DNA of 49,069 bases from Pedobacter sp. (lineage in GTDB: Bacteria; Bacteroidota; Bacteroidia; Sphingobacteriales; Sphingobacteriaceae): the NCBI GenBank assembly GCA_014378705.1, contig JACMND010000119.1:1-49069 (forward strand), in the 5' to 3' direction. Shown piece by piece: positions 27,102-36,745 of this stretch (within the stretch, counting starts at the first letter, position 1; the number at the start of each line of letters is the position of its first letter). Below the pieces are notes generated by a model that did not search any database, was not told the origin of the DNA, and worked only from the letters and a program-made list of their open reading frames with translations. Position numbers and translations under genes: made by a program.

Positions 27102-27203
27102 AGATAAGTCCTTTAAACATCTGTTGAGGAAAGGAAAATTTTTTTGCGAATATAATGATTGTTTTGATTTATGAATAAGCCAAAGGTCAATCTATTATAT
27201 AAA

Positions 27204-27570
27204 AACAAGCCTGTAAGCCGGGTTCTGTATCCCGATTAAATCGGAATTTCTATCATTTATCCAGTCTCTGCATTACTGCAGAGATCTAACGACCTACCCA
27301 CTAACTTCGGACGAGCAGCCCTACATGCGTTAGCCTATTTGGTCTTTCAACTCCTGGGGTTTACCGCTCTAAATGTCGCCATTCAAAGCCGTGGGCTCTT
27401 ACCTCACGTTTTCACCTTTTCCTTATTCGCATAACGCATAAGGTAGTTTTTTTTCTGTGGCACTTTCCGTCTCCGTAAACCGGATCCTTTCCGTTAGAAA
27501 GCAGGATGCTCTATGTTGCCCGGACTTTCCTCTCTCCATTTAGAATGAACAGCGATAGAACGGCTTGCTT
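27204..27570 (-). ncRNA. rnpB: RNase P RNA (class A)
   Basis: Read on the minus strand, the 5' part contains GAGGAAAGTCCGGGCAACAT (27536 leftward), the conserved P4 strand, and the 3' end contains ACAGAACCCGGCTTACAGGC, the matching universal 3' segment. CAAGCC near 27567 pairs with GGCTTG near 27206 to close helix P1. Other landmarks are GGGTAGGTCGTTAG and GGTGAAAACGTGAGGTAAGAGCCC. The size of about 370 bases fits class A RNA. RNase P RNA trims the 5' leader of tRNA precursors. Ends are estimated from P1. Confidence 0.95.
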
Positions 27571-27574
27571 TCCT

Positions 27575-27584: not shown

Positions 27585-27606
27585 GAATTCGTTGGGAATT
27601 CGTTGG
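27585..27606 (-). repeat. Tandem 11-base repeat upstream of rnpB
   Basis: GAATTCGTTGG occurs twice in a row at 27585-27595 and 27596-27606. It directly adjoins the 15-base stretch at 27603-27617 that is also found inside lysA. Confidence 0.7.
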
Positions 27607-27650
27607 TAATCGGAGGTAGAAGTTGTTGATTAAAGGTTGTGGGCTCAGGT
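27603..27650 (-). repeat. Partial copy of the lysA-type dispersed repeat
   Basis: On the minus strand this reads CAACCTTTAATCAACAAC followed by TTCTACCTCCGATTACCAA. ACCTCCGATTACCAA is identical to 33259-33273 within lysA, and the flanking CAACCTxTAATC also agrees. Two copies in 49 kb suggest a dispersed family, though the match is short. Confidence 0.5.
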
Positions 27651-32218: not shown

Positions 32219-33448
32219 ATGTTTAATCCGGATACTTTATCGCTTTTTAAAAATACGGAAACACCGTTTTATTTTTACGATCTACAGTTATTGAACCAAA
32301 CCCTTATCGCATGTAAAAAGGCAGCGGATAAATTTGGTTTTCATGTTCATTATGCGCTCAAAGCAAATTTTAACCAGAAAATTTTAGATGCTGTATTTCA
32401 GCAGGGTTTTGGAGCGGATTGTGTTAGCGGAAACGAAGTTAAGGCAGCTATAAAAACGGGTTTTAATCCTGAAAAAGTAGTTTTTGCAGGTGTTGGTAAA
32501 TCAGATCGGGAGATAAACGAAGCCCTTGATCTGGACATATTTTGTTTTAACGCCGAGTCAGTTCAGGAACTGGAAGTGATCAATATCCTTGCTGGAAAAA
32601 AGAACAAGATCGCCCGGATTGCGCTCAGAATTAACCCGAATGTAGATGCGCTTACTCATAAATATATAACTACAGGCCTTGAAGAAAACAAATTCGGAAT
32701 AAATCAATGGGAATTAGCAGCTTGTGTAAATGCATTTAAAGAATGTAAATATTTGGAGTTTATGGGCATTCATTTTCACATCGGCTCCCAAATTACCAAC
32801 CTGGATGTTTTTAAAAGCCTTTGCATTAAAGCTAATGAGATACATCAATGGTTTAATGAAAGAGGTTTTCAATTAAAAATACTAAATGTAGGCGGAGGTT
32901 TAGGTGTCGATTATCACCACCCCGATGAAAACCCGATTGTTGATTTTGATTCATATTTTCAAATCTTTGACAAATTTTTAGAACGTAAACCCGGCCAAGA
33001 AATTCATTTTGAATTGGGGCGTGCCCTGGTTGCCCATTGTGGTAGCCTGATTAGTCGTGTTTTATATGTAAAGAATGGATTAAAAAAAAATTTCCTTATT
33101 CTGGATGCAGGAATGACAGAGCTAATGCGCCCGGCCTTATACCAGGCTTATCATATGATTGAACGGTTGAACGGATATCAGATGTCAGAAATCGGAAGTC
33201 AAATATCAGATCTTAAATCTCAGGCCTCCAATCTTCTATCTCCAACCTCTAATCTCCAACCTCCGATTACCAAATACGACGTTGTTGGTCCTATTTGCGA
33301 AAGTACAGATTGCTTTGGCAAAGAAGTGGAACTGCCGCAAACTAAACGTGGTGATCTGATTGCGGTAAGAACAGCCGGTGCTTACGGAGAAGTAATGGCT
33401 TCGGGATACAACCTCCGCGACAGGGTTAAATTCCTTTATTTACAATAG
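32219..33448 (+). CDS. lysA: Diaminopimelate decarboxylase with an in-frame repeat insertion
   Basis: 409 residues. PLP site HVHYALKANFN (K48), HFHIGSQI, LNVGGGLGVDY, the ELGRALVAHCG block and GPICESTDCFGKE are intact, so the enzyme should work. It decarboxylates meso-diaminopimelate to lysine. Between QAYHMIERLNG and KYDVVGPICES lies an extra stretch of about 33 residues rich in S, L, Q, N and P that the family lacks. It is encoded by short direct repeats. Without it, length would be close to that of relatives. It follows lysC in an operon. Confidence 0.95.
   Translation: MFNPDTLSLFKNTETPFYFYDLQLLNQTLIACKKAADKFGFHVHYALKANFNQKILDAVFQQGFGADCVSGNEVKAAIKTGFNPEKVVFAGVGKSDREINEALDLDIFCFNAESVQELEVINILAGKKNKIARIALRINPNVDALTHKYITTGLEENKFGINQWELAACVNAFKECKYLEFMGIHFHIGSQITNLDVFKSLCIKANEIHQWFNERGFQLKILNVGGGLGVDYHHPDENPIVDFDSYFQIFDKFLERKPGQEIHFELGRALVAHCGSLISRVLYVKNGLKKNFLILDAGMTELMRPALYQAYHMIERLNGYQMSEIGSQISDLKSQASNLLSPTSNLQPPITKYDVVGPICESTDCFGKEVELPQTKRGDLIAVRTAGAYGEVMASGYNLRDRVKFLYLQ
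33175..33273 (+). repeat. Repeat-rich insertion within lysA
   Basis: About 99 bases kept in frame. TCTCCAACCTC occurs at 33239-33249 and again at 33254-33264, a 15-base period, and degenerate TCAGA/AAATC units make up the first half. The last 15 bases, ACCTCCGATTACCAA, recur on the minus strand at 27603-27617 upstream of rnpB. Confidence 0.7.
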
Positions 33449-34525: not shown

Positions 34526-36745
34526 ATGTCTGATTTTCAAGTTGACCTTACAAACTGCGATCGTGAACTTATTCAAATACCTGGGCAAATACAGTCGCAT
34601 GGATTTTTAATAGCCATTGACGATGAGTACATTATTCGTTTTCATAGTGATAACTTAAATAGTTTTATAAAGGAGATATCCAATAATTTAATTGGTCAGC
34701 CGATTGAATATATAGAATCATTTATTGAAAAACAACAACCTGATTTCCTTAAAAAGCTGGTTGATTTTGGCAAATCCAACAAAAGTTTCGAACAGACCAA
34801 TCCTTTTCAAATCAGTATTAAAGGGGTTTCTTATTACCTCATTATTTCTACCGCTCCTGGCTTTTATGTACTTGAATTTGAACCCGTTATTTTAGATTTT
34901 GTGATGGACGTTCAGAAGATGATCGGCCGTTCAATTACGGAGGTACTGGCTGATGTAGATTTAAATTCTTTACTTAATATCGCTGCCGCGGAAATTAAAA
35001 GCACCATACTATATGATCGTGTGATGATTTATAGATTTGCCAGTGATGGCCACGGTGAAGTTGTGGCAGAAGCTAAAAACGAGGATTTAGACTCCTGGAA
35101 AGGATTACATTACCCAGCTTCTGATATCCCAAAACAAGCCCGCGAGTTATATAAATTAAATTTAACCAGGCTGATTGCTGATGTACACACTATGCCATCA
35201 CGTATTTCAACCGCGGCTACAAACCAACAACCCTTAGATCTTACCAATTCACAACTTAGGGCCGTTTCTCCTATTCATATTCAATATCTTAAAAACATGG
35301 GTGTTGCATCCAGTTTTAGTATTTCCTTATTAAATAAAAAAGAATTATGGGGATTGATTGCATGCCATAACTATTCTCCCCGCTCTATAGATTTTAAATC
35401 AAGGGAATCATCCAAGCTTATCGGGCAGATACTGTCTTCGGCATTGGTATTTAGACAGGACAAAGAAAATCATGAAATATATGAGATCTATAAAAATTAC
35501 CTGGATCAACTAACCAAGCAACTTCAGGAAAGTGATAGTATTGAAGAAGCATTAATTAATAAACAGGTTAACCTGTTAAATGCAGTAAATGCAAGCGGAG
35601 CAGTTTTGCTGTATCAAAAAAAAATGTTTAAGCTAGGCACAACGCCTGATGATGCACAGTTAACTAAACTCTTCAGATGGATTAAAGAATCAGAAAAAGA
35701 TGCACTTTATTTTACGTCTTCACTTTCTGAGGAACACCCGGAGGCCGGCTCATACCGTAAAGTAGGTAGTGGGATGTTATTGTCTGTGCTATCAAAAGAA
35801 CTGGAAGAATACATTATCTGGTTTAAGCCAGAGTTTATCCAAACAATTAAATGGGCAGGTAATCCCGAGAAACCTGTGGAGATCAATGCAAATGGTTTTG
35901 CACATATCTCTCCACGACATTCTTTCGATGCCTGGTCTCAAACAGTGTCTGGAAAATCAGATAGCTGGGGTGCTGAAGAAATAAAATCTGCCATGCGGCT
36001 AAAAGCAGAAATTATGTTTGCCGTTAACCTCAAGGCGGCAGCTATACGCTTGTTAAATGAAAAACTTATAAAAGCTTATGAAGAACTCGATACCTTCAGC
36101 TTTACCATTTCGCATGATTTGAAGAATCCAATTTCGGCAATAAAGGGTTATTCACAATTGCTGGAAAGAGATAAAACGATCAGCGAGTTTGGTAAAACTT
36201 TGGTTAAGAGCATCACAGAGCGAATCAATAAAATGAATTTAATGATCAATGAAGTGTTGGAGTATTCCAGAATTGGGAGATCTGATGAACAATTTAAAAA
36301 TATTGATTTAAAAGTATTGATAAATGAAGTAATTAAAGATTTAGACCAGGTTTATCTTACAGATAACCTAAAAATTACAGTTGCTGAAACTCCGGATTTA
36401 CACGGAGATATGGTGATGATGAACCAGGTTTTTTCTAACCTGATTGGGAATGCCGTTAAGTATTCAAGAGGTTCAAATCCTGCTTTAATACATGTTTCCG
36501 GTGAAGTAAACGGATCTGAAATACGCTATACCATTCAAGATAATGGCCTTGGTATTGAACAAAAGAACTTGACAAAAATCTTTGAACTTTTTAACCGCAT
36601 GGAAAATGCAAAATATATAGAGGGTTCTGGTGTGGGATTGGCTATTGTAAAACGGATTGTTGACAAGCACAAAGGAAGGATTTGGGCAGAAAGCGAAATA
36701 GGCAGGGGAACTACATTTTACGTTTGTTTTAATAAAGCTGTATAA
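34526..36745 (+). CDS. bphP: Bacteriophytochrome histidine kinase
   Basis: 739 residues. PAS domain (1-115) with the biliverdin cysteine C11 in DLTNCDRELIQIPGQIQSHG, GAF domain (about 140-310) with PASDIP (197-202), H251 and H281 in the pocket, PHY domain (about 325-510) with the tongue motif PRHSF (463-467) and a W-G-x-E region, HisKA with H530 in FTISHDLKNPISAIKGY, and a HATPase domain (N-box NLIGNAVKYS, G1 DNGLGIE, G2 GSGVGLAI). It senses red and far-red light. There is no fused receiver. Its 3' end overlaps the heme-oxygenase gene by 28 bases. Confidence 0.95.
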   Translation: MSDFQVDLTNCDRELIQIPGQIQSHGFLIAIDDEYIIRFHSDNLNSFIKEISNNLIGQPIEYIESFIEKQQPDFLKKLVDFGKSNKSFEQTNPFQISIKGVSYYLIISTAPGFYVLEFEPVILDFVMDVQKMIGRSITEVLADVDLNSLLNIAAAEIKSTILYDRVMIYRFASDGHGEVVAEAKNEDLDSWKGLHYPASDIPKQARELYKLNLTRLIADVHTMPSRISTAATNQQPLDLTNSQLRAVSPIHIQYLKNMGVASSFSISLLNKKELWGLIACHNYSPRSIDFKSRESSKLIGQILSSALVFRQDKENHEIYEIYKNYLDQLTKQLQESDSIEEALINKQVNLLNAVNASGAVLLYQKKMFKLGTTPDDAQLTKLFRWIKESEKDALYFTSSLSEEHPEAGSYRKVGSGMLLSVLSKELEEYIIWFKPEFIQTIKWAGNPEKPVEINANGFAHISPRHSFDAWSQTVSGKSDSWGAEEIKSAMRLKAEIMFAVNLKAAAIRLLNEKLIKAYEELDTFSFTISHDLKNPISAIKGYSQLLERDKTISEFGKTLVKSITERINKMNLMINEVLEYSRIGRSDEQFKNIDLKVLINEVIKDLDQVYLTDNLKITVAETPDLHGDMVMMNQVFSNLIGNAVKYSRGSNPALIHVSGEVNGSEIRYTIQDNGLGIEQKNLTKIFELFNRMENAKYIEGSGVGLAIVKRIVDKHKGRIWAESEIGRGTTFYVCFNKAV

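Follow-up and report, generated by a model that had tools for sequence, protein, structure and literature searches.

An in-frame heptamer array within lysA of a Pedobacter sp. genome and its probable place among the changeable heptameric repeats of Sphingobacteriaceae

The DNA analysed here (the window) is a stretch of 49,069 nucleotides from a Pedobacter sp. genome, designated G000 in the 20-genome set of its genus. It carries lysA, whose product contains the Pfam domains Orn_Arg_deC_N and Orn_DAP_Arg_deC; its identity as a diaminopimelate decarboxylase is also backed by sequence comparison with solved relatives, and the gene is the sole match at E ≤ 0.001 in the genome. An extra stretch, through which the reading frame remains open, separates the conserved DAGM..YQAYH block of the protein from YDVVGPICES, and the features of this part of the window are as follows:

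32219–33448, plus strand: lysA, diaminopimelate decarboxylase, 409 aa (open reading frame and Pfam)
33174–33273, plus strand: in-frame degenerate heptamer array of about 14 units, consensus approximately RAYNTCM, recognised by period-7 self-identity and encoding about YQMSEIGSQISDLKSQASNLLSPTSNLQPPIT
33174–33214, plus strand: 5′ portion of the array, the more G-rich one, with a GC skew of +0.27 over the first half of the loop (33155–33214)
33215–33273, plus strand: 3′ portion of the array, the C-rich one, with a GC skew of −0.77 over the second half of the loop (33215–33274)

The self-identity of the insert is 0.62, 0.68, 0.60 and 0.63 at lags of 7, 14, 21 and 28 bases, respectively, against 0.10–0.32 at lags not divisible by 7 (up to 39), and none of 20,000 shuffles matched any of the four values, a regularity far in excess of chance. 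When the whole window was scanned at periods 4–12, the top score was obtained for period 7 at this same insert, and a separate period-7 scan sets the end of the array at 33277. The original prediction had described about 33 extra codons made of short tandem units, with two copies of TCTCCAACCTC at a 15-base spacing; the extra stretch is real and tandem, but its length is about 23–26 codons in the DAGM–GPICES comparison, the two copies start at 33239 and 33253 and are thus spaced by 14 bases (2 × 7), and the period of 7 over the whole insert had gone unnoticed. The insert has the tandem 7-bp unit of heptameric SSRs (STRR-like) and lacks their near-identical units, its own being only about 62% alike at lag 7; some other lysA arrays, such as those of loci L157 and L161, are perfect. 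Elsewhere in the window, a 14-base repeat, ATTTAAAAATATTG, is present in about two copies at 36292–36321 within a sensor-kinase-like ORF (34526–36745).

Alignment of lysA from relatives, which had been proposed as a check, reveals no insert in 18 of the 20 genus genomes, where the distance from DAGM to GPICES is 35–38 aa, and a distance of 61 aa in the window genome and in G010, the latter carrying other heptamers at the same site (AAAGTTG/AAAGTTC, then CTTGCAA-like units). Since both loops measure exactly 61 aa, common descent with turnover would explain them equally well as two growth events. In a wider sample of 100 LysA loops (those of the 20 genus genomes plus the best 80 of 257 named loci, the two sets overlapping), 31 bear an array at P < 0.001, 27 of them at period 7 and eight at period 8, including four at both, and the 69 loops without an array vary between 14 and 23 aa in length. 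A 7- or 8-base array is present in 30 of the 89 distinct LysA proteins, and its owners are Mucilaginibacter and close kin, a Pedobacter group, and two genomes of the window's genus. When these 89 proteins are placed on a quick tree with the loop excluded, the array bearers require 10 changes, at least four of them forced by starred branches; the tree contains some long branches and a mostly empty row for G003 and does not distinguish gain from loss. In array loops of at least 23 aa, the first half is the more G-skewed in 20 of 20 rows (including near relatives and one genome twice), the same being the case for 9 of 11 shorter array loops and 26 of the 69 loops without arrays. The Mucilaginibacter loops L123, L124, L125 and L126 have period 8 instead of 7, with GTCCGGAA-like units, and the loops L130, L132, L133 and L145 have both periods.

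An AlphaFold2 model of the window LysA, obtained from 30 aligned sequences with a moderate mean pLDDT of 74.1, locates the insert in the C-terminal domain between predicted strands 311–316 and 350–356, with residues 321–346 modelled at pLDDT <50 and without secondary structure; values <50 are also given to 299–310 and 358–367, near conserved motifs. The modelled fold matches diaminopimelate decarboxylases, the best being 2qgh (Z 35.3, rmsd 3.1 over 361 residues), and in the sequence alignment the insert is bracketed by 2qgh chain positions 332 and 338.

LysA is not the only core enzyme concerned, and RibF, MqnD, TruA and MnmE, all regarded, like LysA, as essential enzymes, also carry arrays. 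RibF arrays are present in G000, G005, G010 and G011, that is, in four of 19 genomes (no RibF was found in G003), with loops of 50–64 aa compared with 26–31 aa in the others; in 12 of the 15 array-free RibF loops, too, the first half is the more G-skewed, so that skew is no sign of an array in RibF. TruA contains arrays in 3 of 19 genomes, at period 7 in G000 and G005 and at period 8 in G010, after exclusion of G003, whose sole TruA match (41%) resembles a second copy common in these genomes. In MqnD, 17 loops were readable (not those of G001, G000 and G004), and nine of them bear arrays at the lowest P that the test can return, 0.0005. When the genomes are grouped by array type after the fact, the MqnD loops of the C-rich type measure 37 (G019), 44 (G003), 51 (G014), 65 (G017 and G006) and 72 aa (G015), all equal to 2 modulo 7, and a step of seven residues corresponds to three heptamers, the smallest whole-unit change that keeps the frame. 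The loops of G016 and G018 are 29 and 36 aa long, the array of G016 not being significant (P 0.10); the array loops of G010 (27 aa) and G011 (102 aa) depart from the 2-modulo-7 residue, and the loops of G008 and G009, without arrays yet 37 aa long, match it by coincidence. The 102-aa stretch of G011 (L226) combines several kinds of heptamer with an internal duplication and an open frame. An array with both arms is found in MnmE of G001. That the encoded peptides resemble one another (SNLQ, SDLR) follows from a unit length of 7, which 3 does not divide, and from the lack of stop codons in the C-rich units.

These coding arrays belong to a much more widespread class. Ungapped scans at periods 4–12 detected 31 period-7 arrays in 400 kb of G001 and seven in 411 kb of G000 (a non-random sample made up of the window and contigs with previous matches), with no more than four arrays at any other period and none after block shuffling. 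Three consecutive RAYCTCM units, with at most one mismatch, occur in 18 of the 20 genus genomes, compared with 2 of 20 (eight matches) for a reversed control pattern. As in heptameric SSRs, therefore, the arrays are dispersed, and they vary in copy number between relatives, as seen in the seven-residue steps of MqnD and in unequal lengths at orthologous sites. The loci, 2.35 Mb in all, contained 96 arrays, 64 outside ORFs or at ORF ends and 32 inside; the array-bearing frames of at least 150 aa number 29, of which 23 are lysA because most loci had been chosen for this gene. Some array-bearing ORFs are probably spurious or start-extended (two in L263), and these, as well as a weak array in another ORF of L133, were not counted as enzyme inserts.

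In many arrays a G-rich arm precedes a C-rich one, an arrangement that is identical when read from either strand, and the G arm came first in 19 of the 20 arm pairs in an initial set of loci. Across 301 genomes of Sphingobacteriaceae, the family to which the pattern counts refer, the TGAGRT kind is found in the G-to-C order in 100 genomes and in the C-to-G order in seven (431 and 24 matches, respectively, summed over the forward column with overlaps counted). Three of the seven, G149, G253 and G256, have no G-to-C match at all, and some C-to-G places lie within tandem copies of larger palindromes (L308, L313). Other patterns are entirely one-sided, with GTTGANN in the G-to-C order in 4 of 301 genomes and the reversed-control patterns AGTTGNN and GAGTNTR in 15 and 3, against none in the C-to-G order for any of them. 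At loci L304, L308 and L313, the tandemly repeated unit of a satellite is an entire heptamer palindrome with its unique core.

Regarding folding, six intergenic two-armed elements (at four sites, picked by eye) form strong folds, with z from −3.5 to −7.5. At an orthologous intergenic site (L277:7915–7990 in G000 and L246:12199–12275 in G001), where the flanks are 90/87% identical, the hairpins (z −4.9 and −6.8) are built of different heptamers, both arms having been replaced together. The RNA of the window lysA insert does not fold beyond its shuffles (z +0.77), forming neither palindrome nor hairpin, and neither does that of the G010 insert (z +0.12). Five of 13 other lysA loops from Mucilaginibacter and kin exceed z −2 (L122, L127, L129, L136 and L125), as does the mqnD loop of G011 (z −2.4), and none of the four ribF loops, the other four mqnD loops, mnmE or truA does so. 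Palindromic folding is thus not what maintains the coding copies in general, nor is it a property of the window insert.

A second site in the window had been connected with the insert on the basis of a shared 15-base core, the features involved being these:

33259–33273, plus strand: last 15 bases of the array, exactly identical to 27603–27617 of the minus strand
27603–27617, minus strand: second copy of the 15-mer, 32–46 nt upstream of rnpB, which may be what is left of a worn heptamer array and is below the array threshold
27198–27571, minus strand: rnpB, bacterial class A RNase P RNA (270.4 bits)

The identity itself was borne out, and CCTCCGATTACCAA occurs exactly twice in the 3.3-Mb assembly, but the shared 15-mer is not far beyond chance. 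The window contains 20 dispersed exact repeats of at least 15 bases (nine direct and 11 inverted), the mean in 30 windows simulated with an identical dinucleotide composition being 7.4, and none of these contained a 15-mer of the insert. The match is, therefore, locally unusual yet one of many potentially noticeable repeats, and as such weak evidence; with 20 comparable repeats in the window, the 15-mer was rejected as the key clue to a mobile element. The proposed link between the insert and rnpB survives in part: the region upstream of rnpB in the window has no array at the threshold used, but the sister genome G005 (L106:709–1201) has a two-armed heptamer array, with a G arm and a C arm, 16–109 nt upstream of this gene, and the site can therefore bear heptamers, even though the 15-mer is no proof of a shared element. 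Two further loci of the Daejeonella group, L151 and L109, have no array upstream of rnpB. An 11-base direct repeat, GAATTCGTTGG, adjoins the start of rnpB at 27585–27610.

The lysA insert is probably a worn member of a large and fast-changing population of heptameric SSR arrays in Daejeonella and related Sphingobacteriaceae, growing and turning over locally and tolerated by the enzyme as a loop. Such arrays may lengthen or shorten by slippage or unequal exchange of 7-bp units at replication, a new unit variant may then spread along the array, and template switching between facing arms, where these are present, would keep the arms complementary; the available portions of PMC8794818 and PMC8604942 describe template switching as a process that maintains hairpins and homogenises repeat arms. 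Inside genes, only changes that keep the frame would be expected to survive, leading to moves of three units (21 bp, seven residues), and the whole seven-residue steps of MqnD are the outcome that frame selection predicts. A stop-free 7-bp unit would read as one seven-residue peptide cycle in all three frames, 7 not being a multiple of 3, and an array may for this reason be easily tolerated in a loop, which would need no function, neutral tolerance being its likeliest state. The occurrence of RAYCTCM in both lysA and ribF of G000 could instead reflect copying between loci, the period of 8 in some Mucilaginibacter loops counts against a reading in heptamers, and simple slippage does not account for the G arm preceding the C arm.

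Cyanobacterial STRR sequences are also heptamer arrays, found as well in an intron hairpin and in rnpB, although they belong to another phylum and have other units. Heptameric repeats are described as over-abundant in bacteria in the available portions of PMC4692102 and PMC4679880. According to the former, which also mentions Calothrix heptamers, GGGAATC in Xanthomonas and GGGGA[C/T]T in Nostoc are dispersed heptameric SSRs under-represented in ORFs, and the Xanthomonas pairs are convergent in 70 and 75 cases, so that the G-before-C order is partly known already and not wholly new. The arrays studied here resemble these repeats (PMC4692102, in part) in the 7-bp unit, the dispersed arrays of variable length, the convergent G-to-C pairs and the mostly intergenic location, and differ from them in that the units vary within and between arrays and that arrays lie inside loops of core enzymes. 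The TAACTGA direct repeats of Beggiatoaceae, Cyanobacteria and five Bacteroidetes, whose mobility is discussed in the portion of PMC4679880 considered, are likewise 7-bp direct repeats present in Bacteroidetes and in part within ORFs; they consist, however, of one fixed heptamer located mainly upstream of start codons, and their ORF copies in the main genome of that study are mostly at protein ends, unlike the internal loops described here, which are flanked by conserved sequence on both sides. A high genic repeat density has been indicated for Bacteroidota (PMC12699852, in the part available). Open-access literature on repeats, palindromic elements, telomere-like insertions and template switching, searched by these subjects and not by gene name, yielded no report of such arrays in lysA, ribF, mqnD or truA. 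In the present case, arrays recur in the same core-enzyme loops across a family, together with a frame-keeping 21-bp step and a strong rule of arm order. The family thereby offers a natural experiment on the origin of 7-bp repeats, on the matching of arms despite sequence change and on the entry of new segments into core genes; the worn array that encodes the LysA loop shows that simple repeats can build protein parts, and annotators should be aware that a repeat-like insert of 20–100 residues in such proteins can be real.

The arm order may also point to a novel DNA process by which G-rich heptamers are laid down from either side towards the middle, so that the G arm leads on each strand, by which the two arms exchange their heptamer jointly and by which, as a side effect, new loops are repeatedly written into the same few core-enzyme sites, or to any other process that imposes an order on the arms. 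This proposal is a doubtful one, in our judgement; if it were true, bacteria would have their own equivalent of the interstitial telomere repeats that lie head to head, and proteins a continual supply of new sequence.

Rickettsia palindromic elements insert in frame into coding genes and are tolerated as loops, and the original prediction had proposed for lysA a dispersed mobile or palindromic element of this type. What stands of this proposal is that the repeat class is dispersed in the genome and genus, that the insert is in frame, as are the arrays of several other enzymes, and that the enzyme is otherwise intact; what does not is the discrete element, the insert being a 7-base array that forms no hairpin. 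An element of the RPE, REP or MITE type that inserted in frame and then decayed would agree with the occurrence of arrays at many loci, with the strong folds of some two-armed intergenic arrays of the genus and with the G-skewed first half of the long LysA array loops, as would be left by a decayed G-to-C palindrome. Nevertheless, neither the insert of the window nor that of G010 folds, these two genomes have different heptamers at the same site and no common core, and the order of skew is non-specific in RibF, where most array-less loops share it. No constant sequence of the Rickettsia kind recurs at several loci, similarity elsewhere in the genome being short or of the array type, and the best other match to the insert, 73% over 79 bases, is itself a heptamer array. 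Inspection by eye of the nearest emptier sites, whose flanks have diverged, disclosed no target-site duplication. A decayed mobile element is, accordingly, an unlikely source of tandem heptamers such as those of the window.

We know of no telomerase-like enzyme for these heptamer arrays. A telomere-like addition, in which G-rich heptamers are added to the 3′ ends on both sides of a double-strand break and the ends are then joined into head-to-head arrays, would account for the G arm coming first in facing pairs and for the one-sidedness of GTTGANN, AGTTGNN and GAGTNTR, and it finds parallels in the convergent GGGAATC pairs of Xanthomonas (PMC4692102, in part) and in mammalian interstitial telomeric repeats, which are born at breaks and in some cases lie head to head (PMC7215372, in part). 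The eukaryotic sequences are G-rich and some are arranged as here, but they have a six-base unit, and the portion of PMC7215372 considered places none in human exons. The units of a single array are, moreover, too varied for a single template, single-armed arrays are numerous, a unique core often lies between paired arms, and the three C-to-G genomes without any G-to-C match do not conform to the rule, all of which makes this origin highly improbable.

It is equally improbable that the intergenic copies act as terminators or mRNA-stabilising hairpins, the coding copies being their spill-over. Strong hairpins persist at the orthologous G000/G001 site despite the changed sequence, but the runs around 25 distinct G-to-C TGAGRT palindromes are unlike the classic layout of an intrinsic terminator: a T run (at least four) within 14 nt on the 3′ side in one and an A run on the 5′ side in one, with the reverse arrangement in four (A run, 3′) and five (T run, 5′). 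The window's coding copy, for its part, does not fold.

An ordinary fast-evolving low-complexity loop, formed with no special DNA process, would be in line with the variable length of the array-less loops, and is already disfavoured to the point of being scarcely credible, given a nucleotide period of 7 and not 3 in 27 of 100 LysA loops and the presence of the same period in sampled sequence outside genes. An artefact of assembly or binning might be suspected from the 209 contigs of what is probably a metagenome assembly, but is just as hard to credit, since the assembly is 99.68% complete, the frame is open through the insert, and lysA arrays are present in the named isolates Pedobacter soli, P. 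borealis and Mucilaginibacter sp. OK098.
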